From: an uncultured Kiritimatiellota bacterium
GTDB taxonomy: Bacteria; Verrucomicrobiota; Kiritimatiellia; RFP12; DVOR01
NCBI GenBank assembly: GCA_944389585.1
Contig: CALXMW010000009.1
Location: 1-64,000, forward strand
DNA: 64,000 nt
Reading direction: 5' to 3'
In this document: piece after piece, positions 31,706 through 49,974 of the stretch
Position numbering within the stretch: the first letter of the stretch is position 1
Layout of the letters: every line of letters begins with the position of its first letter
Notes under the pieces: model-generated
Told to the model about the DNA's origin: nothing
The model's database searches: none
The model's input: the letters and a program-made list of their open reading frames with translations, nothing else
Translations under genes and position numbers: made by a program

Positions 31706-34700
31706 TCAGCCGCCCTGTGCCGCCTCGGCGGCCAAGGGGGACGCCGAACGGCAGGCCTCGACGCGGAAAAGTCCCCCCTCCGATTCCTGCGGCGCCGTGA
31801 TGGTGACGCTCCGCCTATCAGGCCCCACGGCCTCCGAGACGCCCAAGACTCGGTCGTCCGAGACGGAGCGGAGACGGAACGTCGTGCCAGGGACGAAACT
31901 GGCCCCGGCCGGCGCACGCAGCGCGGCGGCGACCGCGAGGCGCCCCCCGTCAAACGTCAGATCCGTGACGGCAAAGTCATAGCACACCTCCACGCCGCCC
32001 TCCCCATCCGCGTGCGCGATCCCATCCAGACACGCCAACGCCTCGGAAGTCGCCGCCGCGTCGAGCGGCCTCCCGTTGCCCAACGCCCGAACGGCGGAAG
32101 GGACGACATTGCCGTTGACGCGCGTGAGCGTGGCCGCGGCGGCGGGGGAATAGGCGGAGGCGTCGTCGGCGGCGCCATTGGGCTTGGGCGGCGGCGTGGG
32201 ACGCACCCAGATCTCCAGGTTTCGGACGGCGTAAGCGCCAAAGGTGAAGGCCTCGGCGAATTCATCAAGGAAAACCCCGTTGACGGAAGGCGTCCGACCG
32301 CTGGTGTGGGTGGCCAAATCCCCGATGAGCACCTCATCCTCCCCGCTGTCGGAGCCCCAACGGTTGTAGGCGAAAAGCAACGTCGCCGGGGTGGCGGCCT
32401 CGGCCGTGCGAAGCCAAAACTGGAAAATGCCGTAGGCGCCCGTGGCGTTGAGGGTGTCGTTCCAGTCATACCATCCGGCGAGGCCGCCGGGAAGCCCGTC
32501 CGCGCCGTTCGCCGAGCCCGCGCTCCCGGGCGCGAAGGCCACAAAGCACGCGGCGGGGCCGGCGGCCTCGGGGAAGGCGTTGCCGAAGACGTGCGCGTCT
32601 CTCAGGTCCGCCTGAAGCACGGCGTCTGGCAGCCCCAAAGGCAACGCGCCCGGCGCGGCCGCGGCGGAGACCCAGACCGTCCGGACGGGGCCGCCGGGGC
32701 GGGCCAGCTCCAAATAATAGGCCACACGGTCAAAATCCGGGACCGTGTCCTTGTCCAACGCGGCCTCCGCCTCGTCGCGCACGGCGGCGGAACGAAGCCC
32801 CTCCGGCGTCCACCGGACACGGATGTAACCCTCGGCCTCCGGGATGTTCGCCTTGGCGCCAAGCCCGGCCGGCACGAACGCGGCCTCGGCCGTCTCGGCC
32901 GCGGCCTGCCCGGCGCGGCGGGCGGTGAGGCTCAGCGCGACCTCTCGCCCGGCGGCAAGCGGCTGTGGGAGGGCGCCCGTGAGGAGACGCCCGTCCTCGG
33001 AGAGCGTCAGCCCCTCGGCCTCCTGCCCTGCGACCGTAAGGCGGAGCCCGTCGGGCACGACGTTGTGGTTGAGCGCGACGGCGACCCGCGCGCAATCCCC
33101 CTCCGGCGACCAGGCCGCGACGACGGCGAGCGCTTCCCGGAGCCCCTCCTCCCGGGCGGCGATCTGCTCGATGGCCGCGCGCCACACCGCCGCCATGCGG
33201 TTGTAACCGGCTTGATTGGGGTGGAGGCCGTCGTCGAGGTAATAGGGATTGTTAACGCCGGACTCGGCAAAGCCCAGCGCGTCCAACATGCTGGCCAGAC
33301 GCACCTTGGCCGTTTCGCCGAAGAGCGCGCGCCCGGCGGCGTTGAGCGTACCGAGGCGGCAGGGCACCTCCGCGCCATCGACCGTGAGCGTGGCGGTGAC
33401 GGTATCGAAAAGGCTTAGGATCGCGCCGTTGTAAGCCGGGCGGAAGGCGTCGGCCTTGTTGTAATCCTCTTCGGTCTGGCCACGCGTGGCGATGATGGGG
33501 GAGACAATCACCCAGGCGTCCGGGCGCAACGTCACGAGGCGCCGCACAAGCGCCTGCCAATGGGCAAAGGCCGCTGCGGGGTCGCCGCCCGCGTCGTTCG
33601 TGCCGATGAGGAGGGTGATGACGTCTGGGTGGCCGGCGGCGTCCAGGAAATTGGCGACCCCTTCCAGATAACCGGCGCGGTTGCCGCCGGTATGGATGCG
33701 CTGCCCGCTGATGCCGTTGTGGCGGCGGCAAGCGGGCAGCGCGGGGGCGTTGGCCTCGGCGAGCGCCTCGGAGTAGAGATTCTCCCAGAAGCCGGCGGAG
33801 CGCACGTTCCAGCCATCGCGGGCGAAACCGTCGAAGAGGGGTTTGCGCCAGTTGGCGCCGTTGGAGGAACCGTGGGTGATGGAGTCGCCCATCGGCAGGA
33901 CGACCAGGTCCGCCTCGGCGCGGCGGATCGTGAGGGTGAGCGTGCCCTCCGCGAACCCCGTATCGGCGACGGCGCCGGGCAGGTCGGAGCGGGCCAGGAG
34001 CTCCGCCACGCGGTCGGGATCGGCGAACCCGTCGGGGAAGGCAAGCGCGGCGTAATCGCCCTCGGGGAACAAGGCGAGCGCGTCGGCATCGATCGCGAAG
34101 GGCGGCGCGCCGGCCTCCCAGCGGGTGACCCGGGCGCCGGCGGGGAGCGTGAGCGCCTCGCCTCGGGCAAAGGCGCGGAGGGTCCCGTCGGCGGGGACGC
34201 CGCGGAAGACGGCCACACGTTCCAACACGAAGTCGAGCCCACCCGCGTCGGCGTTCACGAAGTTGCCGAAAACGATGCGGTCGGCCCGGAGGCCGGTACC
34301 CTTGAGGCCGGTCACGGACGTCCAGGCCGGCACGCCGTCCGCACAGGGGAAGACGGTCATACGGGCAGGCTGGGTGCCGGTGGTGAGGGCGACGCAGACG
34401 CTCCCCGCGTCGAAGAGCGCGTCGGCGGGCGGGAAGACACCGCAATCGTCCCAGACGGCATTGCCCCACGTGCCGGTGAGGGTGGTCGCGGTCTTAAGGG
34501 CGCAGCCGACACCGGTGGTGCCGTTCCCGACGTGAAAAAGCGGTTTCCCGAGCGGCTCGGGCGAGACGCCGCGCACCACGGCCACGACGGTCAGCGGATC
34601 GGCGGTCTCGGCGTAACCCACGTCCAGCGTCTCTCCGAAATGGATGGCGGGGGCGATTCCCGTGCCCGTGCGCAGCGCCCCCTCCTCCACACGCCCATCG

Positions 34701-36625
34701 CCGAGCGTGAGCCGCCAAGCGGAGGCATCGATCCCCCCGACCGCGAAGGCGGCCTGCGGGGGCAAGGGCGCATTGGGCGCGACGGCGGAGCAATCCTCCC
34801 AAACGGCCAGCAGCCCATCCTCCGGGCCGGGAATCCCGGGCTCGACCCAGACCTCCAAAAGCCGGCGTTCGTAGGCGGCGGGCGCATAGGCGGTATACCC
34901 GGAGAGGCGCGAGAAGTGCGTCCAGTCATAGACGGCGGCGATCTGATTGCCCAAGTTGTCGCGGTGCGTGCTGAAGGACCCGATGCCCATTTCCGTGTAG
35001 GCGGGGTCGCCGCCCAGGAACCCATTGTAGGCAAACAGCATTTCCGCGGCGGGGTCGGTCCAATCCCCGGCGGCGCCCTCGCGGATCCGGGCCACCTGCA
35101 TGCAGCCCCAAAGCCCGCCCCCGGAGGCCAGCGTGTCGTTCCAGCCAAAGGCGCCGGCATGGGCCTCGGCGGGGAAGCCCGGCTGGTCGGCGGCCGTGTA
35201 GGTGTAGGGCGAGAACTCGATGACACCGCGGCCCCCGGTCACGGACTTGGCGAAGTTGCCGCGGTTCCCGAAGACGGCGAGCCTCTCGACGATGGCCTTG
35301 CGCGCGGGACCGCCGGCCGCCGGGATGCCCGTCTGCGCGGGGTCGCCGCCGAAGGCCGCCGCGTCCATCGAGACCCAGACGAACTGCGCGGGCTGGCCGG
35401 GGCGTTTGAGCTCGAGGTAGTACCCCACGCGGGCGATGGCGGCGGGCGGGTCGGCGAGCGTGGCCTCCGCCTTCCCGGTCGCCAGATCGGTCGCGCTCAG
35501 GCGGACAAAGCCCGCGCGGAAGGAATCGGGGACATTGTCGGCCGCGCCGGAGCCCAGCAACTCGATGGCCGCCGCGTCGGCCTCGGCGCGCAGCCCGCCG
35601 CAAACGAGGGCGGCGGCGGAGACCTCGCCATTCCAGAAGGCCCGGTCGCAGGGGAAGACCAGGACGCGCGGATCCTCCGGGTCAAGCCGCCCGCCGGTGA
35701 GGGTCGGGCCGCCCGTCAGGGCAAGCGTGCCTCCGACGAACGCCCCCGCGGGTCGGTTGAGGCGTACGCGCACCTCCCCGGCGACGCCGTTGTGGAGATG
35801 GACGATGGCCGGCGGCGCGTCGCGCAGCGCGGCAATGGCGGGCTCGAAAGCGGCGGTGCGCCAGGCGGCGGCGACACGTTGGCTGCCGGTCTCGTTGGGG
35901 TGGACGCCGTCGGGCTTGTAGGCGGCGGGGTCGAAGGTATCGTCGAAGGCGACGCGGGCGACATCGGCGAGGCGGACGTTCGGGCGGTCGAAAGGCGGCT
36001 CCTTGGCGGCGGCCGCGGCGCGGATGAGGGTGTTGAACGGCCCAAAGCGACCGTCGGATTTGTTGCCGGGGACGACGGGCAGCAAGGTGGAGACGAGCAC
36101 TTGGCTGTGGGGGCGCAGGTCGGCCAAACGCGAGGCCAGCTCCACCCAGCCCGCGAAGACCGCCTCAATGCCGGCCGCGTCGTCGGAGGGAAGGAACGAA
36201 AGGTCGTTGATGCCGAGCATGAGGGTGATGACGTCGGGGTAACCGGCGTGCTCAAGCGCGCTCTCGGCATTGAAGCGATGCGCGCCGTATTGGTTGCCGG
36301 AAACGGGGCGGATGAGCCCGCCGTAGAGGCCGCAATGCCAAGCCCAAGCCGGATTGTCCTCGACCTCCTCGGTGCCCTGGTGGCCGGTCCGGAACCCCAC
36401 GCAGCGGACGGGCTGCCCGGCCTCGGTGAGCTGGCGCCAAAGTTGGTAGCGATAGCCGCCGCGCGTGGCGGCGTCGCCGCGGTCGGGGTGGCCCATGTCG
36501 CGCTCGCCCTCGGTGATGGAGTCGCCCATCGGCATCCAGACAAGCGTGTCCGGCAACCGCTCCTCGGCGCCGCGCCCAAGGACGGTGGCGGACAGCGCAA
36601 GCAACACGGCGGCAAGCAATCTCAT
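31706..36625 (-). CDS. Large secreted protein with two SGNH/GDSL hydrolase domains
   Basis: 1639 aa with a signal peptide (about residues 1-20). The first SGNH esterase domain begins at MPMGDSITEG (nucleophile S36) and ends near DGVHPNETG (about 238). The second begins at LPMGDSITHG (about residue 910) and ends near DGLHPNQAG (about 1135). Each is followed by a beta-rich module with similar elements: YYLELxRPG, GWNDTL or DWNDTL, LFAYN and LEVWVxP/LEIWVxP. The protein thus looks like an internal duplication of SGNH plus beta module. SGNH enzymes include sialate and carbohydrate O-acetylesterases, and the gene starts 15 bases after the stop of the GH16-sialidase gene in the same operon. A GGGAGGAG site precedes the ATG. 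Confidence 0.88.
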   Translation of the reverse strand: MRLLAAVLLALSATVLGRGAEERLPDTLVWMPMGDSITEGERDMGHPDRGDAATRGGYRYQLWRQLTEAGQPVRCVGFRTGHQGTEEVEDNPAWAWHCGLYGGLIRPVSGNQYGAHRFNAESALEHAGYPDVITLMLGINDLSFLPSDDAAGIEAVFAGWVELASRLADLRPHSQVLVSTLLPVVPGNKSDGRFGPFNTLIRAAAAAKEPPFDRPNVRLADVARVAFDDTFDPAAYKPDGVHPNETGSQRVAAAWRTAAFEPAIAALRDAPPAIVHLHNGVAGEVRVRLNRPAGAFVGGTLALTGGPTLTGGRLDPEDPRVLVFPCDRAFWNGEVSAAALVCGGLRAEADAAAIELLGSGAADNVPDSFRAGFVRLSATDLATGKAEATLADPPAAIARVGYYLELKRPGQPAQFVWVSMDAAAFGGDPAQTGIPAAGGPARKAIVERLAVFGNRGNFAKSVTGGRGVIEFSPYTYTAADQPGFPAEAHAGAFGWNDTLASGGGLWGCMQVARIREGAAGDWTDPAAEMLFAYNGFLGGDPAYTEMGIGSFSTHRDNLGNQIAAVYDWTHFSRLSGYTAYAPAAYERRLLEVWVEPGIPGPEDGLLAVWEDCSAVAPNAPLPPQAAFAVGGIDASAWRLTLGDGRVEEGALRTGTGIAPAIHFGETLDVGYAETADPLTVVAVVRGVSPEPLGKPLFHVGNGTTGVGCALKTATTLTGTWGNAVWDDCGVFPPADALFDAGSVCVALTTGTQPARMTVFPCADGVPAWTSVTGLKGTGLRADRIVFGNFVNADAGGLDFVLERVAVFRGVPADGTLRAFARGEALTLPAGARVTRWEAGAPPFAIDADALALFPEGDYAALAFPDGFADPDRVAELLARSDLPGAVADTGFAEGTLTLTIRRAEADLVVLPMGDSITHGSSNGANWRKPLFDGFARDGWNVRSAGFWENLYSEALAEANAPALPACRRHNGISGQRIHTGGNRAGYLEGVANFLDAAGHPDVITLLIGTNDAGGDPAAAFAHWQALVRRLVTLRPDAWVIVSPIIATRGQTEEDYNKADAFRPAYNGAILSLFDTVTATLTVDGAEVPCRLGTLNAAGRALFGETAKVRLASMLDALGFAESGVNNPYYLDDGLHPNQAGYNRMAAVWRAAIEQIAAREEGLREALAVVAAWSPEGDCARVAVALNHNVVPDGLRLTVAGQEAEGLTLSEDGRLLTGALPQPLAAGREVALSLTARRAGQAAAETAEAAFVPAGLGAKANIPEAEGYIRVRWTPEGLRSAAVRDEAEAALDKDTVPDFDRVAYYLELARPGGPVRTVWVSAAAAPGALPLGLPDAVLQADLRDAHVFGNAFPEAAGPAACFVAFAPGSAGSANGADGLPGGLAGWYDWNDTLNATGAYGIFQFWLRTAEAATPATLLFAYNRWGSDSGEDEVLIGDLATHTSGRTPSVNGVFLDEFAEAFTFGAYAVRNLEIWVRPTPPPKPNGAADDASAYSPAAAATLTRVNGNVVPSAVRALGNGRPLDAAATSEALACLDGIAHADGEGGVEVCYDFAVTDLTFDGGRLAVAAALRAPAGASFVPGTTFRLRSVSDDRVLGVSEAVGPDRRSVTITAPQESEGGLFRVEACRSASPLAAEAAQGG

Positions 36626-36639
36626 AGGAACTCCTCCCT

Positions 36640-39600
36640 TCAGCGCAGATAAGGCGCAAGGTCGATCCGCTCAAAACAGATCTGGTTGTTGGCCTCGTAA
36701 AGGACGCCCAGTGTCGTCTCGTCAAGCAGGCAGAGCGAGACATAACCCTGCCCGCCGGTCGCCCCGGCGTGGATCACGAGGGGATTCTCCAGGTCCCAGG
36801 CCACGCCCTCCTGCCCGGCGTCCGGGTTGTCCACGGTGAGGTCGCGCCCGAAGACCAGCGCCAGCCGGGCGCGGGTGGCGGGGTCGAGTTGGTGGGCCAG
36901 CACATAACGCCCCACCCCGTCGGCCCCCACGCCGATGCGCAGGCAGGAACCCTGCACGTGGATGACGCCGTCGATGGTGGCGAGCTGCGACCACGTCTTG
37001 AAATCGGTCGTGCGGAAGAAGAGACGCTTGCCCTTGCCGGGGCCCCAAGTGCCGCCCTTGGACATCATGAGCCACGAGCCGTCGTCCAATTCAAGGATGC
37101 AATTCTCCTGCGCGTTGCCGGGCGGCATGGGGGTGAGGCCCGTCGTCCGCCAGGTCTTGCCGCCGTCGGTGGAATAGGCGGCGCAGCACTGCGCATTGGT
37201 GGTGCCGCCGTTCACGAAGGCCTGGACGGGGAAGACAAGCGTGCCCGTGGGCATTCCCGCGCGGCCGATCCGCGTGACCATGCCATGCCCCGGGCCCGCG
37301 AGGACGCCGCGCCCGGGGTTTGCCGTCCTCTCGATGCCCGCGAGGATATCGGCCTTGACGGAGCGGCGCCCCTCCCACTTGGCGTCCGGGCCGACGCCGC
37401 GGGAATACAGGACGCAGTCGTTGCGTTCGCTGTTCTCGCCGACATACGAAAGCCCGCCGCCGGTGATGGCCATCAGCCAGTAACGTTCCCGCTCGGGGTC
37501 GAAGAGGAGGGCGGCGTCGCCGATATCCATTTCCTTGGTGATCTTGGCCTGATTCTTGCCATAGGGATAGGAACCGTCGTTGGCGCGGAAGTTGGGCACG
37601 TCCACGGCCAGACGCGGCCTCCCCCACGAGACGCCGAAATCGTCGCTGTACGTCTCGCCCAGGTCAATGCCGCTGAGGCGGAAATCCCCCAGGTCGCCGC
37701 TGCCGTAGCGGACGTCATAGACCGCCACCACCCCGCCCGCGCCATCGGTGGCGAGGGCCGGGATCCGATAAATGGTGGCGTCATACCCTTCCGGCGTCCG
37801 CTCCGAGGCCAGGGCGCTGTCCGCGGGCACGAAGCCATCCTTCACCAAATCGTCCGCCACCACGGCGGCGATATGCGCGGTCGTGCCCGTGCCGCCCCAC
37901 GTGCCTGCGGCCACGGAGACCGAGCCGTTGACGTCGGTCGGGCCCGCGAGGGTGACCTGCGCGCCGTCCGTCACGGCAAGCCCCGTGAAGGTGAGCGTGC
38001 CCGTGGCCGCCGCGCCCTCGGGCGTCTCGAGACGTGCGGCATGGGCCACGCCGTCGATCGTCAGCGTATAGTGCCCGCCGGGGACAAGGCCCGTGCCGGA
38101 AAGGGTCAGCGTCAGCGTCGTCCGCCCCGCGGCGCCAAGATCCGCCGGATCCCCCGCGAAGGCGAAACCCAAAAGCGTGGCCGTACCCGAGCCGGCCGCG
38201 AGGGGACGCTCCGCGGGCGCGGCGGGCCGCAGGTCGACCAAAGGCCCCGGCGCGCCGGCCGTTTCCTCGGCGCGGACCTTGAGGAAGGGGAAGCCCGGCG
38301 CCGTCGCCTCAAGCGTCGCCCCCGCCGCGACCGGCGCGGGGGAACTTGCCAACCGCTCCCACGCCCCGCCGAGCGTCCGCGCGCCCAACAGGGAAAGCGC
38401 GCCGTTGCGCAAGGCCGGCGTCCCGTCCGAAAGCGTCACCGACACGCGGTCGCCGACCTCCAGCCGCCCGACGGCGACCTCCGCCGCGCCGCCCCGGTCC
38501 ATCCCGAACGCCCACAGCGCCAACGCGGCGTCGCGGTCGCCCAGCCGCTCGCCGTTCACCGAGACCTCCGGCACGGTCAGGGCGCCGCGCACCCGAAGCA
38601 GATGCAGCAACGGGCCAACACCCAGCCCGCGGAGCGCGTCGGGCACCTCATAAAGCGCGGCGACCGGGTTGTCGGGCACGGCCGTTTCCGCGAAGTCCAC
38701 CCGCGCGGCATGGAGGCGCAGCCCCGCCAAGGGCAAACCGCCCGTGGGCGTCGCGCCGAAGGTGATGGCCGTGAGCGGCGCGCCGCTCCACTTGATGCCC
38801 GGGGCCTCGGCCAAAAGGCGGCCATCCTCCCACAGCGCCGCGCCGCCGCCGATGGAATAGACGAGCGTCCAGAGATGGCGCCCCGCGGAGGGACGGCCAT
38901 ACGTCACGGTCTTATCATGCTCCAAGGAGCCGCTGTGGCGGATGGGGTCGGCCTCCGCCGCGCACGCCTCGGCCTGCGCCGTGAAGACCTCCCCGTCGCC
39001 GTGCGTCATCTCCCAGCCCACGAGCGCGCCCGTGGCGCCCTCGGGCAACGTCGCGTCCACCGTCACGGCCACCGCCGTATGGCCGGCAGCGAAACCGGAA
39101 AGGCGGAGCGCCCCGCCCGACAAGACCAACTCCGGCTCGCAGACCGGCGCGGCGGGCAGCAACCATTGCGCGCCGCCGTCCGTGCAGACGAACGGGCTCT
39201 CCGCCACGCCCAGGCGCAGCGACGCGGTGTGGACCGTCAGTCCCGCCATCGGCGAATCGGGTGCGTCCGAGGCGTCGTTGCCAAAGGTGAGGAACGGTAC
39301 CGCCGTCCTCGACCAGACCAACCTGGGCGAGGCGTAGGCCAGGGCCCCATCCACCCAGACCCGCGTGCCCGAGGTGACCGAATCGCGCGCCGCGCCCCCC
39401 ACGTTCGGCCGCTCGGAGTCATAGGTCAGGCGGATGCGGTGTCGGCCCGGCGCGAGCGCCACGGTTTGGGCGCCGTCCACCTGCGACCAGCCATTGTAAA
39501 AGGCCGAGGCCTCCCCCGCCTCCTGGCAGGCGAAACGCACCTCGTTCGTGCCGGAGCGGAACCCCAGGAGCGTCCCCGTCGCGCCCTCGGGCACCGTCAC

Positions 39601-40731
39601 CTCGGCCGTCAGCGTGAAGGCGGAGACCGGCGCGAAGCCGCCGATGGCCAACGGCCCGCCCGCCAAGGTCAGCCCGCCATCCGCCCCGACCGTCGCGTCC
39701 GCGGGAATGAGCGGCGCCGCGTCCGGGTCGTCGCACGCGAAGCCCGCGAAGGCGGAGGCCTTCCCCTCGATGAGCAGACGGTTGCCCGTCACCTCGGGAT
39801 CCTGCCACACGCGCACGTAATCGATCTCGTGGGCGATGGGATAGCCCGCGCCATCCGTCGGCGGGTCGTTGGCCATGCTCCCCAGCGCCAGATTCAGCAC
39901 GAAGTGGAAAAGATTGTCCGCGAAGGGCGTCTCGTCGCTCTGAGGGGCCGCGAGCTCCCTGGGATCCCGTTCGAGGACCGTCTTGCCGTCGAAGGTGACG
40001 GCAAGGCGTTCGGGCGCCCACTCCAACCCATACTCATGCCAGGCCGCCGCCGCGAGATCCGCTTGGTCCAAATCCTCGCACAGGAGCGTCTCGCCGGCCA
40101 TCTTGTAGGCCGGGCCCGTCCACGAATCGCCCCAATGCAGGGTGGAATGGATGGTTTGGCGCGCCTGCGCGGCGGCCTCCGCGCCGTCGCCGTCGCGCGT
40201 CGCGTACTCCATCAGGTCAATCTCGCCGCACTGCGGCCACGGGACGGTGGAGACGCACCGCCAAAAGGCCTCGGGGTCGTTGAGGTTCTCCGGCGGGGTC
40301 TGCGTCGTGCCCAGCATCCAGATGGCCGGCCACGCCCCCGAGGCGACGTTGAAGCGCGCCCGCACCGCCACCCGCCCATACCGCATGGAGAACTTGCCGA
40401 AGGAGTTCACCGAGCCCGAGGCGTAGGGCTTGGACTTGGTGTAGCTCCGCCAATCCTCCCACCCGTTCTTGCCGTAAAATGGGTTCGAGTACCCGGCCTC
40501 GTCAAAGGTCGCCGTCAGCCGCAGCACGCCGTCCGCGACCGTGAGGTTGGCCGGGTCGGCGCGATAGAGCTGCGCCGCGCGGTCGTTCCGCACCAGCCCC
40601 TGCTCCGCCGTCCACTTCGCCCCATCCAGCGCCACCCCCTCGAACTCGTCGTGCCACACCAGCACCTCCGCCGCCGGCGCCACCCCCGCCGCGGCCATCA
40701 ACGCCAGCCAGACAAACCAAACACGTCGCAT
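36640..40731 (-). CDS. GH16 endo-glycanase fused to GH33 sialidase, secreted
   Basis: 1363 aa with a signal peptide (residues 1-21). Residues 22-312 are a GH16 jelly-roll hydrolase with the catalytic motif EIDLME (E170, D172, E175). The middle (about 320-985) holds beta-sandwich modules, at least two of LamG/ConA type. The last 371 residues are a sialidase: YRIP near 998, Asp boxes SDDFGVSW and STDGGKTW plus a degenerate TTDFKTW, TLVFPVQ, and ENCILELDDGS with the conserved Glu. GH16 enzymes include mucin O-glycan endo-glycanases; with a sialidase the natural substrate would be sialylated host glycans (inference). The ATG at 40731 has an AAAGGA site; a GTG at 40758 is less likely. Confidence 0.9.
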   Translation of the reverse strand: MRRVWFVWLALMAAAGVAPAAEVLVWHDEFEGVALDGAKWTAEQGLVRNDRAAQLYRADPANLTVADGVLRLTATFDEAGYSNPFYGKNGWEDWRSYTKSKPYASGSVNSFGKFSMRYGRVAVRARFNVASGAWPAIWMLGTTQTPPENLNDPEAFWRCVSTVPWPQCGEIDLMEYATRDGDGAEAAAQARQTIHSTLHWGDSWTGPAYKMAGETLLCEDLDQADLAAAAWHEYGLEWAPERLAVTFDGKTVLERDPRELAAPQSDETPFADNLFHFVLNLALGSMANDPPTDGAGYPIAHEIDYVRVWQDPEVTGNRLLIEGKASAFAGFACDDPDAAPLIPADATVGADGGLTLAGGPLAIGGFAPVSAFTLTAEVTVPEGATGTLLGFRSGTNEVRFACQEAGEASAFYNGWSQVDGAQTVALAPGRHRIRLTYDSERPNVGGAARDSVTSGTRVWVDGALAYASPRLVWSRTAVPFLTFGNDASDAPDSPMAGLTVHTASLRLGVAESPFVCTDGGAQWLLPAAPVCEPELVLSGGALRLSGFAAGHTAVAVTVDATLPEGATGALVGWEMTHGDGEVFTAQAEACAAEADPIRHSGSLEHDKTVTYGRPSAGRHLWTLVYSIGGGAALWEDGRLLAEAPGIKWSGAPLTAITFGATPTGGLPLAGLRLHAARVDFAETAVPDNPVAALYEVPDALRGLGVGPLLHLLRVRGALTVPEVSVNGERLGDRDAALALWAFGMDRGGAAEVAVGRLEVGDRVSVTLSDGTPALRNGALSLLGARTLGGAWERLASSPAPVAAGATLEATAPGFPFLKVRAEETAGAPGPLVDLRPAAPAERPLAAGSGTATLLGFAFAGDPADLGAAGRTTLTLTLSGTGLVPGGHYTLTIDGVAHAARLETPEGAAATGTLTFTGLAVTDGAQVTLAGPTDVNGSVSVAAGTWGGTGTTAHIAAVVADDLVKDGFVPADSALASERTPEGYDATIYRIPALATDGAGGVVAVYDVRYGSGDLGDFRLSGIDLGETYSDDFGVSWGRPRLAVDVPNFRANDGSYPYGKNQAKITKEMDIGDAALLFDPERERYWLMAITGGGLSYVGENSERNDCVLYSRGVGPDAKWEGRRSVKADILAGIERTANPGRGVLAGPGHGMVTRIGRAGMPTGTLVFPVQAFVNGGTTNAQCCAAYSTDGGKTWRTTGLTPMPPGNAQENCILELDDGSWLMMSKGGTWGPGKGKRLFFRTTDFKTWSQLATIDGVIHVQGSCLRIGVGADGVGRYVLAHQLDPATRARLALVFGRDLTVDNPDAGQEGVAWDLENPLVIHAGATGGQGYVSLCLLDETTLGVLYEANNQICFERIDLAPYLR

Positions 40732-40758
40732 ACCGATTCCTTTCACGATTCCTTTCAC
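40732..40758 (-). repeat. Tandem duplicated ribosome-binding segment
   Basis: On the minus strand GTGAAAGGAATC occurs twice in a row just before the start of the GH16-GH33 gene, so two AAAGGA sites lie 12 bases apart. The first GTG is in frame and could also start translation. Confidence 0.7.
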
Positions 40759-40772
40759 GCGATTGCCGTTTC

Positions 40773-40781
40773 AGTCTAACA
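40773..40781 (-). promoter_or_regulatory. Possible promoter of the GH16-GH33/SGNH operon
   Basis: The minus strand reads TGTTAGACT, an extended -10 with two mismatches to TATAAT. It is the only candidate between the upstream terminator and the start at 40731. Confidence 0.4.
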
Positions 40782-41238: not shown

Positions 41239-41595
41239 ATGGAGCAGGGTGAGCGGGAGCGGCTGCTGGGGCGTGCCCGGGAGCTGGAGGCGCGGTTGGA
41301 GCGCGCGCGGCTGTGGCGCCGGGAGCAGGCCGCCGAGGAGGCGCGTCTGCTGGACGCGCTGTCGGCGCAGCGGCGGCTGATGGCCAAGGGGGCGGCGCAG
41401 GCCTACCGGCTGAGCGCCGAGCTCTCCGGCATCCGCCTGCGCCTGCACGAGGCGCAACGGGCGGGGGAGGGGCCCGGGGCGGGTGCGGGGTGCGTCCGGC
41501 TGCCCCGTGCCGTGTCCGCCCGTGGCGGGGACCCGCCGGGGAGGGCGGGGTTGCGCTACAATGGGGACATTGCGGTTCGGCAAGGGAGCGACACG
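41239..41595 (+). CDS. Coiled-coil ORF, possibly a truncated gene, in frame with GH89
   Basis: An ATG at 41239 with an AAGGGAG site opens a helical, Arg/Glu/Leu-rich sequence of about 75 residues (ELEARLERARLWRREQAAEE and so on), after which the sequence is low-quality G-rich spacer. There is no stop before the GH89 start at 41596, so the frame runs into GH89. I read it as a truncated coiled-coil gene whose stop was lost, not as a true GH89 extension, because GH89 has its own signal peptide and ribosome binding site. The family is unknown. Confidence 0.4.
41557..41562 (+). promoter_or_regulatory. Possible GH89 -10 element
   Basis: TACAAT lies 33 bases before the GH89 start. No convincing -35 or TG extension is present. 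Confidence 0.4.
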
Positions 41596-44052
41596 ATGCG
41601 CGGATCGGTCTTGATGTTGGCGGGGCTGGCGGCGGCGACGGTCGCGGCGGGGCCGTTGGAGGAATTGGCCGGGCGCGTGGCGCCGGGGCTTGAGGGGCGG
41701 GTGCGCTTCCGGGTGGACCCGGGGCTGGGGGCCATCCGCATCGCGCGCGAGGGGGCGGACGGGGTGGCGATCGCCGCGCCGGGAACGCGCCTGGCGGCGG
41801 CGGGGCTGGGGCTTTATCTGCGCGAGGTGGCCGGCGCGCACTGGTCGTGGTGCGGGAACCGTCTGGAGGGCCCGTGGCCGGCGCCGGCGCGGACGCTGAC
41901 CTTCGAGCCGGCCTTCCCGGAATCCGTCGCTTACAATTATTGCACGCTTTCCTACACCATGGCCTATTGGGACGAGGCGGCGTGGCGGGAGGAGCTGGAC
42001 CGTCTGGCGCTCTTCGGCGTGCGCCGCTTCCTGGTTCAGGCGGGCGTGCGGAAGGCCTGGCAGCTGACGCTCCGCGAGCTGGGCTGCCCCGAGGCGCGTA
42101 TCGCCGCCTTCCTGCCCGACGAGGCGGCCGCCGCGTGGTGGGAAATGGGCAACCTCGAGGGACTCGGCGGCCCCGTGCCGCAGACGGCGATCGATCGCGA
42201 CGCGGCGGTCGGCCGTTTCGTCGTCCAAGAGGCGTTGGCGCTGGGGATGGAGCCGATCCTGCACGGATTCGTGGGGCTGATGCCGCACGACGCGCCGGAG
42301 TGGCTGGACAAGGCGCGTTTCCCGGACGCGCGTTTCGTGCCGCAGGGGACATGGGTGGATGGTTTCGTGCGGCCGACGGTGCTGGATCCGACCACCCGGG
42401 CCTTCCGCGACGTCGCGGCCGTTTGGTACCGCAATCTCTTCAAGGTTTACGGCGTGGCGCGCGCGGAGGCCTTCGCGGGCGACCTCTTCCACGAGGGCGG
42501 GCGCACGGGCGGGCTGGACGTCACGGCCTGCGCGCGGGCCGTCCAGGCCGCCCAGCAGGCCGCGTCGCCGGGCGCCAAGTGGGTCATCCAGGCCTGGGGC
42601 GCCAATCCGCGGGCGGCGCTGCTCCGCGGCCTTGACCCCGGACACACGCTCATCGAGGCGCTCGTGAAAAACCAGTCTTCCGGGAATGTCGGGTGCCGCG
42701 CGTTCGGCGATATCCCGTGGGTGTGGTGCGAGCTGGTGAACTTCGGCGGCAAACACGGCCTCTGCGGCGGCGCGCCGATGGTGGGCGCGCTCGGCCGGGC
42801 GCTCGAGTCCCCCGGCGGCGGCACGCTCGCCGGGCTGGGATTCCTCTCCGAGGGGTTGGAGACCAACCCGCTTATCTACGAACTTCTCGCCGAACGGCTC
42901 TTCCTGCCCCGCGGCAAGGTGATGGACCGCGCCGATCTCGGCGCCTGGCTGGCCCTCTACGCCACCCGTCGTTACGGTCTCTGCACGCCCGCCGTCCACG
43001 AAGGGCTCTCCATCCTTCTCGATTCCGCCTACACACACACGCGCGACCAGGAGGGCGGCTTCGAGAGCGTCTTCTGCGCCCGCCCCTCGTGGACGGCCCG
43101 CAAAACCTCCACGTGGTCCACCGCCGAGCCCTACTACGACCCCGTCCTCACCCTCCGTGCCGCGCAGGCCCTGCTCCGCGCCGCCCGCGAAACCTCCGCG
43201 CTTCTCGCGCGGGAGACCTTCCGCTACGACTTGGCCGACGCCGCGCGCCAGGCCCTCGCCGACCTGGCCCGCCCCCTGCTCTCCCGCGCCAAGGAGGATC
43301 CCGCCGCCCGGGCGGCCTTCGTCGAGGCCATCGTCCGCACGGATGAGGTCCTGGCGCACGAGCCCCGCTGGCGGCTCGATTGGCATGAGGCGCGCGTCCG
43401 CCGTCAAGGCGGGGAGGCCGCCGCCCGCGCCTGGCGGCGCATGGTCTCCACGTGGACGGGCCGCCGCGGCGCCCTCAACGACTACGCCCACCGTCAGCTC
43501 GCCGGCATGATGGGCGGCTACTACCGAAAACGCTGGGAGGCCTTCTTCGCGGGCGGGGAGGGGCTGGAGGCGCGCCTCGCGGCCATTGACCGGGATTTCG
43601 AGGCCAACGGCGTGCCCGGCCCCGCGCCAAAGGGCGATTTCGTGGAAGCCGTGGCCGAGGCGCTCGCCTTCGCGCAAGGTTGCCATGCCCGGTGGCCGGC
43701 CGCCTTCCGTTTCGCCCCCGGGGTGCCGTGGGATCTCGCCGCCGACCGGATGACGGTGGACGTGACCGACCAAATCGGCCCCGCCGGCCTCTATGAGGCC
43801 GAAATCCTCTGGAAGCGCGGCCCCAACGCCCTGAAAATCGCCAAGGTGGAACTCCTGGAGAACGGCCGCCCCGTGGCGGAGGACGCGCACGCGGGCTATG
43901 CCGGCATCCGCCGCGACAAAAACGTCTACGCCCTCCGCCTGCCCGCCCGCGCGCCCGGCACGCCCGCCTATGCCCTGCGCATCACGGGCGAGGGCGACGG
44001 CGGCGACCGTTCCGCCGGCGTCGCCGTCATCGCCCCGCGTTCCGGGATGTGA
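41596..44052 (+). CDS. GH89 alpha-N-acetylglucosaminidase-like protein, secreted
   Basis: 818 aa with a signal peptide (about residues 1-18). The NAGLU-type core is clear: NYCTLSYTMAYW (114-125), DRLALFGVRRFL, FAGDLFHEGG with the acid/base candidate E300, WVIQAWGANP, and PWVWCELVNFGGKHGLCGG (374-392). GH89 removes alpha-linked GlcNAc, for example from gastric mucin or heparan sulfate. The segment that carries the nucleophile Glu in human NAGLU (FAES) aligns with LVKNQSS here, so the nucleophile may be missing or moved. AAGGGAG precedes the ATG. It is divergent from the GH16-sialidase operon and probably belongs to the same glycan-use locus. Confidence 0.88.
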   Translation: MRGSVLMLAGLAAATVAAGPLEELAGRVAPGLEGRVRFRVDPGLGAIRIAREGADGVAIAAPGTRLAAAGLGLYLREVAGAHWSWCGNRLEGPWPAPARTLTFEPAFPESVAYNYCTLSYTMAYWDEAAWREELDRLALFGVRRFLVQAGVRKAWQLTLRELGCPEARIAAFLPDEAAAAWWEMGNLEGLGGPVPQTAIDRDAAVGRFVVQEALALGMEPILHGFVGLMPHDAPEWLDKARFPDARFVPQGTWVDGFVRPTVLDPTTRAFRDVAAVWYRNLFKVYGVARAEAFAGDLFHEGGRTGGLDVTACARAVQAAQQAASPGAKWVIQAWGANPRAALLRGLDPGHTLIEALVKNQSSGNVGCRAFGDIPWVWCELVNFGGKHGLCGGAPMVGALGRALESPGGGTLAGLGFLSEGLETNPLIYELLAERLFLPRGKVMDRADLGAWLALYATRRYGLCTPAVHEGLSILLDSAYTHTRDQEGGFESVFCARPSWTARKTSTWSTAEPYYDPVLTLRAAQALLRAARETSALLARETFRYDLADAARQALADLARPLLSRAKEDPAARAAFVEAIVRTDEVLAHEPRWRLDWHEARVRRQGGEAAARAWRRMVSTWTGRRGALNDYAHRQLAGMMGGYYRKRWEAFFAGGEGLEARLAAIDRDFEANGVPGPAPKGDFVEAVAEALAFAQGCHARWPAAFRFAPGVPWDLAADRMTVDVTDQIGPAGLYEAEILWKRGPNALKIAKVELLENGRPVAEDAHAGYAGIRRDKNVYALRLPARAPGTPAYALRITGEGDGGDRSAGVAVIAPRSGM

Positions 44053-44293: not shown

Positions 44294-45085
44294 GTCCCCT
44301 CCTTCCGCCCCACTGCGCAAGCGTGGATTTCTGCATTTCAATTAGAAAAGGGAGCTGTCTGGCCAAGCGCGTCATGGCTTATTCTGACATGCAAACACTG
44401 TCGCATTCATTGTGCGGCACGCCATCGCGCATGGGATATCGAACGAACGCTCGCCCGTTTCGACCCCATTCGTGTTTCCAATGTCAGCGACAAGGATTGT
44501 CCAGTCCGACTGAAATTGGGATTCCTCCCAATTCTGTGCCACAGTGCGTTCCCCAAGGCCTGGTTTGTCCGTGAGGCGGCGCATGGGAATTGAGAATGGG
44601 GGAAGGGCGGAATGGCGGGGTTTTGAGGGGACGGAACAAAAAACGGCGGGCGGCGAAGGTGAGAATGAAAAGGCGCGAAAAGGGCGGGAAATCAAAGAGG
44701 TTGAGAAAATATCGGGCAGGGGGGCGCTTTTCTCACGCTTCCTGATTTCGGTTTACGGGCGGCTTGCGGAGGGATTGCGGGCCGCTTGTTTTGTCCACAG
44801 TGTCCACGGTTGCCTTAAACGAAGAAGAGGGGCGTGGGACAATGGAGGCGTTCTCCCGAGGTATGGCCCTCGCCGGTCGTGCCCCGCGCCGGGTTGGCGA
44901 AAGGCGGGGCGCCTTTTCCGGAGGCGACGGCGGCATGAGCGAGGGCGCCCCGGCGTGCTGTGGGTGGTGCTCTCCGCCGGCGAGCGCCGGGCCGTCGAGT
45001 GGATGCGCATCCTCCGCAACCACCTTCCCTCCCTTTGTCAAAACACCTCCCCGGAATCCTCCAGGGGGTCTCACTCTCAAAGTTT
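44294..45085. other. Gene-poor spacer of lower GC before the helicase gene
   Basis: About 790 bases without a convincing gene. 44514-44533 is a perfect 8-bp hairpin (AATTGGGA-TTCC-TCCCAATT). A minus-strand frame at 44372-44584 could encode 70 aa but has no homology that I recognise. TTTTCTCA occurs once on each strand around 44710 and 44735, echoing the left half of the 45086 palindrome. The part from about 44860 to 45060 is again GC-rich. Confidence 0.5.
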
Positions 45086-45119
45086 TTGATTCTTTTCTCA
45101 AGGCACGTGAGCGAATACA
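45086..45119. repeat. 34-bp repeat with CTCA-N7-TGAG palindrome, copy 1
   Basis: The sequence begins TTGATTCTTTTCTCA and ends CACGTGAGCGAATACA. It matches 47519-47552 at 29 of 34 positions, in the same orientation. The two copies flank the helicase gene. It may be an operator or an end of a mobile unit. Confidence 0.7.
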
Positions 45120-45214
45120 CCGCCCCGCGCGCTGGGGGCTTTCCCCGGGTGGGCGGCCGCCCGCCGCGCCCAATGCCACGAACCTCAGCGGGCAGTTGTT
45201 GAGGGGAGGTCGTG

Positions 45215-47277
45215 ATGGCAGGTATCCGGATAGCGGCGCGGTTTGAGAAGGCACGGGGGGCCCTGGAGGGCAAAGAGGCCGCGCGCGTGGCCGATGCGGT
45301 GTTGCGCCTGAATACAAACCCGGAGTTACCCGCCTTCCATTCGCACCGCGTGGACGCGTGCGGCTTTTGGTCGGCGCGCGTGGGGGCGATTTGCGCATCA
45401 TCCTGCAGCGGGGCAACGATGGCGTGCTGACGCTGTGCTATGTGGGGCACCATGACGATGCTTATGCCTGGGCGCGGCGGCATCGCTTGGCGCAACACCC
45501 CGTGACGGGGACCATGCAGTTGGTGGAGGTGCCCGAACAGTCGGAGGCGCCACGGCGTGCCGTGCGGGCCACATCGCCGGCGCGGCGCCTGGTGCTCGAC
45601 GAAACCGCGCTCCTGGCGCTTGGCGTGCCGCCGGATTGGGTGGCGCGCGTGTTGGAGGCGCCGGACGCGGATGCCTTGATGGACGTGGCCGAGCATCTGC
45701 CGCCGGAGGCCGCCGAAGCCGCGCTGAAAATCGCCGTTGGGGAGCGCCCGGAGCCGCGACCTGTCGCGGAGGGGGTGACCGGCTTTGAGACGGAGGATGC
45801 CAAACGCGCCTTCGTTATCGTTTCGGACGACGCGTTGGTGCGCGAGGCGTTGGAAGCCGGTTGGGAGGCGTGGACCGTCTTTCTGCACCCGGAACAACGC
45901 AAGATGGCGTATCGCGATTACATGGGGCCGGCACGCGTCTCGGGAAGCGCCGGCACGGGTAAGACGGTGGTGGCGCTCCATCACGCAAAGTGGCTCTTGG
46001 AGCGCAACCCCGGCCGCCAGGTGTTGCTGACGACCTATTCGCAGAACTTGGCCGCGGATTTGCGCAATCGCCTCCACCCGCTCATCCTCAACCCCAAGAC
46101 GCGCGAACGCATTAATGCGGAAGACCTCCTGGGTTTTGCCATAGAAACCTATCGGGCGATTGCCGGCCGCTTCCCGCGCATGAAGGACGCGTATGAGGGC
46201 GAGGAGGCAGACTTCGTGCGGCAGGTCATCCAGGAAAACGCGACGCTTTTGCCCAAGGATTTGCCCGTGGATTTCGCTTATGCGGAGTGGTCCCGTGTGG
46301 TGGATGTGCGTGATTTGCACACGTGGGAGGCATACCGGGACGCTAAACGCCGTGGCGTAACGCGGCGTCTTTCCGAGCCTAGGCGCAAGGCTTTGTGGAC
46401 AGTCTTCGAGTGTGTGCATACGGCCTTTGCGCGTGAACAGTGTCTAAGTCGGGGCGAACTCTTCGGGTGGTTGGCGCAGTGGTTGACGGAACACCCCGGT
46501 CAGGGGCGTGCGTATGATTATGTGATTGTGGACGAGGCGCAGGATTTGGGCGAGGTGGAGTTGCGCTTCTTGGCGGCCTATGCAACGCGCCCGGATACCC
46601 TCTTTTTTGCGGGAGACGTTGGGCAACGCGTGCACCGATATGCCTTCTCTTGGGAGGCCTTGGGGATTTCGGTGCGGGGGCGGAGCCGCACCCTCAAGGT
46701 CAATTATCGCACGGCGCATGAAATCCGTGAGCTGGCTGATCGGCTTTTGGATGACGACAACGAAGATCCCGATGGCGAGAAACAGAGTCGGCGCGGGACA
46801 ATCTCGGTCGTGCGAGGCGCCAAGCCCGAAATCCGGACTTTCCCCACGCAAGAAGCCGAATGCGCGGGCGTGGCGGCGTGGCTGGACACTCTCAAGGCGC
46901 GCAACTTCAAGGCACGCGAAATCGCTGTTTTTTATCGCGACGAGGCGCAACGCTCACGCGCTTTGGCAATGGTGCGCGCCTCGGCTTATCGCGATTGCAT
47001 CCGCAGACAATCAATCGACCTGCATTTGTGCACGATGGCTGAGGCCAAAGGGTTGGAATATCGTGCCGTGGCGGTTATCGCGTGTGATGGCGACATCATC
47101 CCCTCGCCCAAACGCCTCGCGGAAAACGGCTTCATCTCCAATCTCGGAGAAATCTACGAAACGGAACGTAACCTACTCTATGTGGCCTGCACGCGAGCCC
47201 GTGATGTACTTTTAATCACAGCGGCAGGAAGCCCCTCGGAGTTTCTGATGGACTTGGCCAATCCCGCTCTGACGTGA
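45215..47277 (+). pseudogene. RelE-like/UvrD-like helicase fusion with a one-base frameshift
   Basis: If one G is added in the run at 45382-45386 the frame encodes 687 aa. Residues 1-90 form a RelE/ParE-like domain (ending in LTLCYVGHHDDAYAWARRH). Then comes a superfamily 1 helicase with Walker A GSAGTGKTVVAL, Walker B VIVDEAQDL, GDVGQRVHRYAFSW, LKVNYRTAHEIREL, EAKGLEYRAVAVI and LLYVACTRARDVLLI. The upstream frame (ATG at 45215, with GGGGAGG) ends early; the downstream frame is open from 45358. The break could be real, phase-variable or an assembly error. Codon use is less GC-rich than in neighbours, which suggests transfer. The family may have a role in DNA repair or defence. Confidence 0.85.
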
Positions 47278-48042: not shown

Positions 48043-49974
48043 TCAACGAATCCTGAACCGATAGCCCAGGAGCGCGGGGCCGAGGGCGCCGCGCAACCCC
48101 CCGAGCGGGCGGCCGTCAAGCCCCGTCTCCGGGCAGGTGTGGCGCAGCTGCGGGCAGCTTTCCTCCGCGGCGGGCCGGAGGCCGTCGGCGCCGACGTTCA
48201 TGCGGTGGCTTTCGTTGTTGAGCGAGTCGCAGTTGCTTGCCATGCCAATCTGCCCCGCGAAGGTGCAGTGCGTCAGCTCACACGTGTCCAGCCCGACGCT
48301 CGCCCCCGGGAAGAGGCAGCAGACGAGCACACAGAAGGAAGCGGCCTTGCCGTCCTTGCCACCCTGGAGGACGCAGCCGCGCAGGGTGGGCATCCCGCCC
48401 GTGCCGCTGGAGGTGACCAGGCTGTCGGCGGCCCCCGCGCCCTCAAGCCAGAGGCCGTCGAGGGTGGCGTCGCTCCCGAGGACGAGGTGCGCGCCGTCGG
48501 CGAAGGTCAGGCGCGAGGGGCGGTTCAGGGGGTCGCGCGCCCCCGTGGCGGGGGCGTAGCCGCCCTGGAGGGTGCGGCCGACGGGGATCTTCAACATTTC
48601 AGAAAAGACGTAATCGCCGGCAGCCAGGTAGATGGGGTGGACGACGTCGGCCTGTTCCAGCGCATCCTTGAGTGAGGCGGCGGTCTCCCAGGAGCGCCCA
48701 TCGCCGCCGCCCTCGGCGGTCACGAAGACAGGGTTGGGCGTCAGCATGAAGTCCGCGACGGCGCCGGCGTAGGCCAGCTCGAAGAAGGCCGCCTTGCCCT
48801 CCCCGGGCTTGTCGTCCTTGTGCGCCTCGTCCCAGGCTTTCTGCTTGGCCGCGCGCGTCGGCTCGTCCACGTGGCTTTCGACCGTGACGGTCTGCGCAGG
48901 GGCGTCGGCGTAGCCCTCGGCCTGGACGGTGAGGATATAACGGTCGGCTGGATAGGGCACGGCGGGGTCGACCACCGCGTCGGCGGAAGGTTTGTGCAGG
49001 CCGATGAAGGCATAGCAGCCGTTCGCGTCCGTGGTGGCGGTGTCCTTAATCTTGCCGTCCGCCGTGGACAGGGTCACCGTTGCGCCGGGGACGGGCACCG
49101 CACCGTCAGTCGCCACGCGCCCGACGATGACGCCCCCGAGGTCGGTCGGGAAGACGTTGGGGTAGAAGGCGAAACCCTCAGTGACCAGTTGATCCAGATC
49201 CCACCAGCGCCCGCTGGCGCTGCCCCAGCCCTTGTCCACGTGGAACCACTCCTTGCCGTCGGCGTCCACGCCCCAGCCGTCCACCACGATCATGTGCCCG
49301 CTGATCTGAAGCACCGTCGGCGCCTCGGTCTGCGCCCCCACGCGCAGGAGGCGGCGCATCAGGTCGGGCCAATAGGGCACCATGGCGCCGTTCCGCTGGA
49401 TTTTGCTGTACATCGCGCCGTCCGCGAAGCCGCAGTAAGCCTTGAAGCCCTCGACCTTGATGGACCCCGCCGCCCCCAGCGCGGATTGGTAATCCACCTT
49501 GCCGAGGAGGCCGAGGTTCCACATCAGCCGCGCGACGGGGATGTCCTTCAGGCCGTCCTCCGCGTCGAGCGTCAACTTGCCGCGCACCGCCTCCCAGTCA
49601 TACGCGCCCGGCCAGGAGGCGCGCGACACCTCCTCGCCGCCATAGTACACGGAACCCTCGAAGGGGGTCGGCTCCCAGCCCTGCGCGGGGACGCCGTGGT
49701 TGAGCGCATGATAGACCAGCACCTGCCCCCACGCCAGGGGGTCGCAACCGCAGTCCGCGCCGTCGAAGCCCGACCTGCCCGCGCCATCCACGTAGCCGCG
49801 CAGGTCTTTCTTGCCCACGTAGGCGTTCAGCGCGCCCGCTTGGTCCCAGTCGGTCGCCTCGCAGCGCGGCGCGACAATCTCGAAGTCCGGCGCGTCGCTC
49901 CGCTCCGCGGCCATGCCTATGCCCGCCCAAACCACCGCGCACAACGCGGTTCCCAATGCAAGAATCTTTCCCAT
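48043..49974 (-). CDS. Secreted C10-family (streptopain-like) cysteine protease with extra modules
   Basis: 643 aa with a signal peptide (about residues 1-22). The papain-like C10 domain has the catalytic Cys in DCGCDPLAWGQVLVYH (C77), His in ISGHMIVVDGWG (H227) and the Trp in VDKGWGS (W250). It lacks the long propeptide of streptopain. A carboxypeptidase-regulatory-like beta domain follows (GVIVGRVATDGAVPVPGATVTL near residue 280), then a part that looks like a short right-handed beta-helix (DATLDGLWLEG to THCTFAG). It probably degrades extracellular host or dietary protein. There is no clear ribosome binding site; an extended -10-like TGCTAGCGT ends seven bases before the ATG. Confidence 0.85.
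   Translation of the reverse strand: MGKILALGTALCAVVWAGIGMAAERSDAPDFEIVAPRCEATDWDQAGALNAYVGKKDLRGYVDGAGRSGFDGADCGCDPLAWGQVLVYHALNHGVPAQGWEPTPFEGSVYYGGEEVSRASWPGAYDWEAVRGKLTLDAEDGLKDIPVARLMWNLGLLGKVDYQSALGAAGSIKVEGFKAYCGFADGAMYSKIQRNGAMVPYWPDLMRRLLRVGAQTEAPTVLQISGHMIVVDGWGVDADGKEWFHVDKGWGSASGRWWDLDQLVTEGFAFYPNVFPTDLGGVIVGRVATDGAVPVPGATVTLSTADGKIKDTATTDANGCYAFIGLHKPSADAVVDPAVPYPADRYILTVQAEGYADAPAQTVTVESHVDEPTRAAKQKAWDEAHKDDKPGEGKAAFFELAYAGAVADFMLTPNPVFVTAEGGGDGRSWETAASLKDALEQADVVHPIYLAAGDYVFSEMLKIPVGRTLQGGYAPATGARDPLNRPSRLTFADGAHLVLGSDATLDGLWLEGAGAADSLVTSSGTGGMPTLRGCVLQGGKDGKAASFCVLVCCLFPGASVGLDTCELTHCTFAGQIGMASNCDSLNNESHRMNVGADGLRPAAEESCPQLRHTCPETGLDGRPLGGLRGALGPALLGYRFRIR

Follow-up and report, generated by a model that had tools for sequence, protein, structure and literature searches.

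Introduction

A triad of three arginines is regarded as a hallmark of the sialidase superfamily. BTSA-type sialidases of family GH33 (PDB entries 4bbw, 4fj6 and 4q6k) share a six-bladed beta-propeller with Asp boxes, a beta-sandwich preceding it, and an active site that includes the Arg of the RIP motif, the third Arg of the triad, an Asp, a Glu and a Tyr. In family GH181, as seen for AmGH181 (Amuc_1547), the third Arg is exchanged for Gln and the Tyr nucleophile for His-Gln, and the enzyme is inverting (PMC10067855). In influenza N9 neuraminidase, the substitution R292K lowers activity at pH 6.5, leaving an enzyme that is still active and has its optimum near pH 5.1 (PMC3810934).

Among the GH16 enzymes, the mucin O-glycanases BACCAC_02680, BF4060 and Amuc_0724 (structures 6T2N-6T2S; Crouch et al., PMC7419316) possess a single catalytic domain with an ExDxxE motif, a three-Trp motif in finger 3 and Trp platforms at subsites -1 and -2. 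Subfamily 3 of GH16 also includes laminarinases and other glucanases, and sequence divergence among the known O-glycanases is high, most of them being just 22-38% identical (PMC7419316). Sialic acid was never seen on the products released by these O-glycanases, and all assays were supplemented with a sialidase (PMC7419316). In Akkermansia, GH89 acts on the mucin fragments that are released by GH16 (PMC11790493). Here we describe a protein in which each half resembles a known kind of enzyme, whereas their combination and a fixed Arg-Lys-Arg (R-K-R) triad in the sialidase half were not found in the literature searched.

Results and discussion

A GH16 domain and a sialidase fold on one secreted chain

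The window, i.e. the whole stretch of 64,000 nucleotides that was analysed, belongs to a genome of 1.95 Mb in 26 contigs. Its minus strand carries, at 36640..40731, an open reading frame for 1363 residues plus stop when counted from the ATG, or 1372 residues from an upstream GTG. The first-pass annotation had proposed that this frame encodes a secreted GH16 enzyme followed by a sialidase, based on the motifs EIDLME, YRIP, Asp boxes and TLVFPVQ, all of which we indeed find in the one protein. The order of the two halves was borne out by the Pfam GH16 match, by matches to the structures 6t2n, 4bbw and 4fj6 and by the predicted structure. From the N- to the C-terminus, the chain consists of a putative Sec signal peptide (residues 1-21, MRRVWFVWLALMAAAGVAPAA, 40669..40731, minus strand, recognized by eye), the GH16 domain, two laminin-G-like jelly rolls, a linker, a beta-sandwich and a six-bladed sialidase propeller.

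Full-length homologues comprising GH16 and sialidase are present in five other genomes of the same genus, the Candidatus Spyradenecus group (L005-L009), with identities to the window protein of 87-93% for L005-L008 and ~60% for L009; the named copies stem from uncultured Kiritimatiellaeota MAGs and Candidatus Spyradenecus faecavium. As these are homologous frames of full length in other genomes, an assembly chimera and a chance open reading frame are both excluded. Large antisense frames, e.g. 36769-40779 on the plus strand, were dismissed as by-products of 70% GC with a GC3 near 0.89. Scanning 84,980 species genomes with short conserved peptides, which reaches close relatives only, returned just nine loci, all from the Spyradenecus group. 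The first-pass annotation was not aware of a well-described enzyme with this domain order; a literature search with GH16-GH33 phrases likewise found no paper naming the combination, and a broader search yielded nothing relevant. Judged from its sequence, the protein is a fusion of a GH16_3-type and a GH33-like domain with an R-K-R triad, which belongs to a divergent lineage that is neither textbook GH33 nor GH181.

The GH16 half is most similar to a mucin O-glycanase

The GH16 catalytic domain is subfamily-3-like and spans residues 24-313 (39793..40662, minus strand), of which residues 103-256 match Pfam PF00722 (E 2.9e-7; 30.6 bits against a gathering cut-off of 22). The catalytic motif EIDLME (40207..40224, minus strand) retains all three residues of ExDxxE, that is E170, D172 and E175. 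Alignment to 6t2n revealed the three-Trp motif of finger 3 (W138, W157 and W165) including an insertion, and the platform residues W138 and W165, located upstream of EIDLME, correspond to the -1 and -2 subsite Trps of the Bacteroides O-glycanases. Thus, the catalytic motif, the finger-3 motif and the platforms are common to this domain and the known mucin O-glycanases, whereas the insertion between W138 and W165 and the added sialidase-like domain set the window protein apart from these single-domain enzymes.

The substrate of this half is uncertain, since subfamily 3 also holds laminarinases and the known O-glycanases are so divergent. A beta-glucanase of the laminarinase kind, directed at dietary or microbial glycans rather than mucin, would agree with the dominance of beta-1,3/1,4-glucanases in the subfamily, with laminarinases being the next-best matches, and with the W138/W165 platforms, which O-glycanases and laminarinases have in common. 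We nevertheless regard this as unlikely. In the PDB sequence search, 6t2n was the sole strong full-length match (residues 18-313, E 4.1e-32; next match 1e-15) and the best one reaching over the first 80 residues. When a profile built from five orthologues was used, 6t2n scored 128 bits as compared to 78 for the best laminarinase, a margin of 50 bits, and the neighbouring genes as well as the sialidase on the same chain point to host glycans. The bit-score margin favours, short of proof, an endo-beta-galactosidase acting on poly-LacNAc.

The middle region

The GH16 domain is followed on the minus strand by two laminin-G-like jelly rolls (about residues 330-507, 39211..39744, and about 514-679, 38695..39192), an alpha/beta linker region lacking a family match (about 680-850, 38182..38694) and a beta-sandwich ahead of the propeller (about 851-975, 37807..38181), all delineated in the predicted structure. 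A Pfam search of this region in the window protein gave nothing significant, and a Laminin_G_3 match in the homologue L011 stayed below the cut-off. Foldseek matched the first jelly roll to neurexin and laminin LG pairs; as the jelly-roll fold is shared at 7-15% identity only, we rejected the view that the middle region is closely akin to neurexin, laminin or toxin receptor-binding domains. Glycan binding by the laminin-G-like domains is possible from the model. The beta-sandwich is probably covered as well in the long alignments that Foldseek gave with full-length sialidases of the BTSA type.

The propeller carries Lys in place of the second triad Arg

Residues 982-1363 (36643..37788, minus strand) form, according to alignment and predicted structure, a sialidase-like six-bladed propeller. 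In a PDB sequence search, residues 985-1359 aligned with the GH33 sialidases 4bbw and 4fj6 (E about 1e-15), and the predicted structure of residues 326-1363 (pLDDT 81.2) found its best solved matches in BTSA-type sialidases (Foldseek, E 1.5e-22). YRIP and TLVFPVQ are present, as are strict Asp boxes at 1029 and 1187 and a degenerate one at 1241. In an alignment with 4fj6, 4bbw and L004, the ordinary Arg-type sialidase of the window's own genome, five of the six key residues are kept, namely R989, D1006, E1209, R1287 and Y1330, and among these the Tyr/Glu nucleophile pair (Y1330 and E1209) and the Asp acid/base (D1006) are invariant in alignment A3. The sixth, the second Arg of the triad, is replaced by Lys1225 (codon 37057..37059, minus strand). 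A misalignment was rejected, as the Glu-to-Lys/Arg spacing is 16 residues in the window protein as well as in 4fj6 and 4bbw, without gaps.

The GH33 label given in the first-pass annotation can thus be retained in part. It is backed by the fold, by Tyr, Asp and Glu and by the first and third Arg, but Lys1225 and subthreshold family scores speak against it: BNR_3 reached 19.8 bits at the C-terminus against a cut-off of 27, BNR_2 was likewise weak and below its cut-off, and the NCBIfam neuraminidase model NF052328 scored 37.7 against 900 bits. The annotation had also said beforehand that lack of the Arg triad would count against a sialidase; R989 and R1287 are there, and the middle position, 16 residues after the catalytic Glu, is Lys. 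Compared with the BTSA-type enzymes, all other features named above are shared, whereas identity is about 20% and the window protein falls into a separate, well-supported lineage. Like GH181, it has a sialidase propeller whose Arg triad is changed, and AmGH181 stems from a relative within the same phylum-level group. However, the window protein changes the second Arg and keeps the third (R1287) as well as Y1330 and is therefore no GH181 member; with the Tyr in place, retaining chemistry is to be expected.

As the Tyr nucleophile and the rest of the sialidase site are intact, the site looks altered rather than dead. The Lys occupies what we take to be the position of influenza R292, and since the R292K enzyme stays active, lysine at this place of the triad need not mean a dead site. 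Whereas R292K is rare and drug-selected, the Lys described here is fixed across a whole lineage. The altered triad could also hint at a non-catalytic module that binds sialic acid or another glycan and targets the GH16 domain. The sialidase fold has been reused as a binder elsewhere. We consider such a role improbable: Asp, Glu, Tyr and the other two Arg are kept in every member of the lineage, dN/dS of the sialidase part relative to the window copy is 0.16-0.40, and the same substitution was gained twice (see below), which suggests tuning and not decay. With values of 0.25-0.36 for GH16, purifying selection acts on both domains, which argues against pseudo-enzymes.

Distribution and evolution of the Lys-type lineage

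At the position of Lys1225, every one of the 16 rows of alignment A3 has Lys, and so do all 18 domains of the Kiritimatiellae lineage in the tree. When 346 genomes from the class and 388 from the phylum were searched, this lineage was located in two genera only. Three further proteins (L072-L074), assigned to Akkermansiaceae by genome kinship, also have Lys at the second triad position and show stronger BNR scores; their closest relatives carry Arg, and the tree forces two separate Arg-to-Lys changes, one in Kiritimatiellae and one in Akkermansiaceae. A limited literature search found no description of a fixed R-K-R triad.

These data bear on whether Lys marks a change in specificity, such that the propeller cleaves a different acidic sugar, for instance Kdn or a Kdo-like or bacterial nonulosonic acid, or accepts sialic acids only when these are modified. 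Fixation of Lys in the Kiritimatiellae domains together with its separate gain in Akkermansiaceae, the ordinary Arg-type sialidases retained in the same genomes (L004, L089, L087 and L088) and the long starred branch that sets the Lys lineage apart would all fit. On the other side, the remaining sialidase residues and the Glu+16 spacing are kept, and the propeller is physically joined to a GH16 domain of the mucin type. On balance, we deem this change of substrate rather less probable than action on sialic acid, and a more serious alternative than those above.

The two halves need not act together, as a paralogue in the same genome (L002, about 50% identity) consists of the middle and sialidase parts without GH16. 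In L009, the GH16 part differs from the window copy by a dS of 0.29 as compared to 1.3-2.4 for the remaining domains; the simplest reading of these sequences suggests that a divergent backbone received its GH16 module by exchange. In another Kiritimatiellae genus, a chain of 1906 residues (L043:2084-7801; G070 C65) combines GH16, GH18, a related middle region and a Lys-type sialidase, i.e. three glycan-cleaving folds. Since its GH16 domain is just 26% identical to that of the window protein, pairing of GH16 with Lys-type sialidases may have arisen more than once.

Other domain combinations were noted as well. A protein of 2688 residues (L045:2569-10632; G109) joins a Lys-type sialidase to CotH kinase-like and lamin-tail domains, with a similar mix in L044 (G117), and L079:1069-3987 (G550) contains a partial SASA sialic-acid acetylesterase domain followed by an Arg-type sialidase.

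Gene neighbourhood

Fifteen bases separate the stop of the fusion gene from the start of the downstream gene on the same strand (31706..36625, minus), which encodes 1639 residues with two SGNH/GDSL esterase domains (Pfam Lipase_GDSL_2), each with GDSIT, GxND and DxxHPN motifs. A PDB sequence search with this protein gave nothing. The adjacency of both genes is kept in L034-L038. On the other side, a divergently oriented gene (41587..44052, plus strand) encodes a GH89 alpha-N-acetylglucosaminidase (Pfam NAGLU, E 7e-75), and the orthologues in L034 and L037 are likewise flanked by a GH89 gene, at 99% identity. The tandem SGNH esterase and GH89 neighbours fit host-glycan degradation. Further genes of the same genome code for GH29, two GH20, about eight sulfatases and an aldolase nearer to NanA than to DapA, albeit below the curated cut-off.

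Elsewhere in the window, 48043-49974 (minus) encodes a streptopain-type C10 peptidase with a carboxypeptidase-regulatory-like domain, possibly another secreted host-directed enzyme. A frame of 534 residues at 44815-46419 (minus) has no Pfam or NCBIfam match and is probably spurious, as it overlaps a UvrD-type helicase frame at 45358-47277 (plus).

A proposed model for uncapping and cutting by one molecule

Taken together, we consider it fairly probable that the protein is a secreted enzyme with two catalytic domains for host, mucin-type glycans, in which sialidase-like uncapping precedes GH16 cutting; the activities, the substrate, their order and the roles of the neighbours are what we infer. 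A role in mucin breakdown is plausible in view of the 6t2n match, the gene neighbourhood and the fact that GH16 O-glycanases do not accept sialic acid (PMC7419316). Because sialic acid blocks these enzymes, a single chain with both activities would solve the problem locally. In our model, the propeller would remove a nonulosonic acid from the terminus, sialic acid being the most likely one, through the usual Tyr/Glu/Asp retaining chemistry, with the substrate carboxylate gripped by an Arg-Lys-Arg set in place of three arginines. The GH16 domain would next cut internal beta-galactosidic bonds in the uncapped poly-LacNAc chain, and the laminin-G-like pair may either space the domains or bind glycans. 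The tandem SGNH esterase, encoded in the same direction, probably strips acyl groups that stand in the way, and GH89 from the adjacent gene would take off alpha-GlcNAc caps. The main doubt concerns what the Lys-type propeller cleaves; the Arg-to-Lys exchange could signal a non-sialic substrate.

More tentatively, and with the balance tilted against it, the Lys-type propellers may be a family or subfamily in their own right among the hydrolases with a sialidase fold. Such a group would be marked by a carboxylate clamp fixed as Arg-Lys-Arg, would have evolved separately in Kiritimatiellae and Akkermansiaceae, would act on a substrate of its own (a nonulosonic acid that is modified or differs from Neu5Ac) or have its optimum shifted to acid pH, and would have been fused repeatedly to endo-acting mucin glycanases. 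If true, uncapping and chain cutting would be united in one molecule. A lineage with fixed Lys, along with a separate gain, provides a natural test of the role of the second Arg in substrate range, pH optimum and inhibitor sensitivity. In the fusion, a single chain unites two steps of mucin breakdown that are known to follow one another, which hints at the poorly known gut Kiritimatiellae as mucin foragers.
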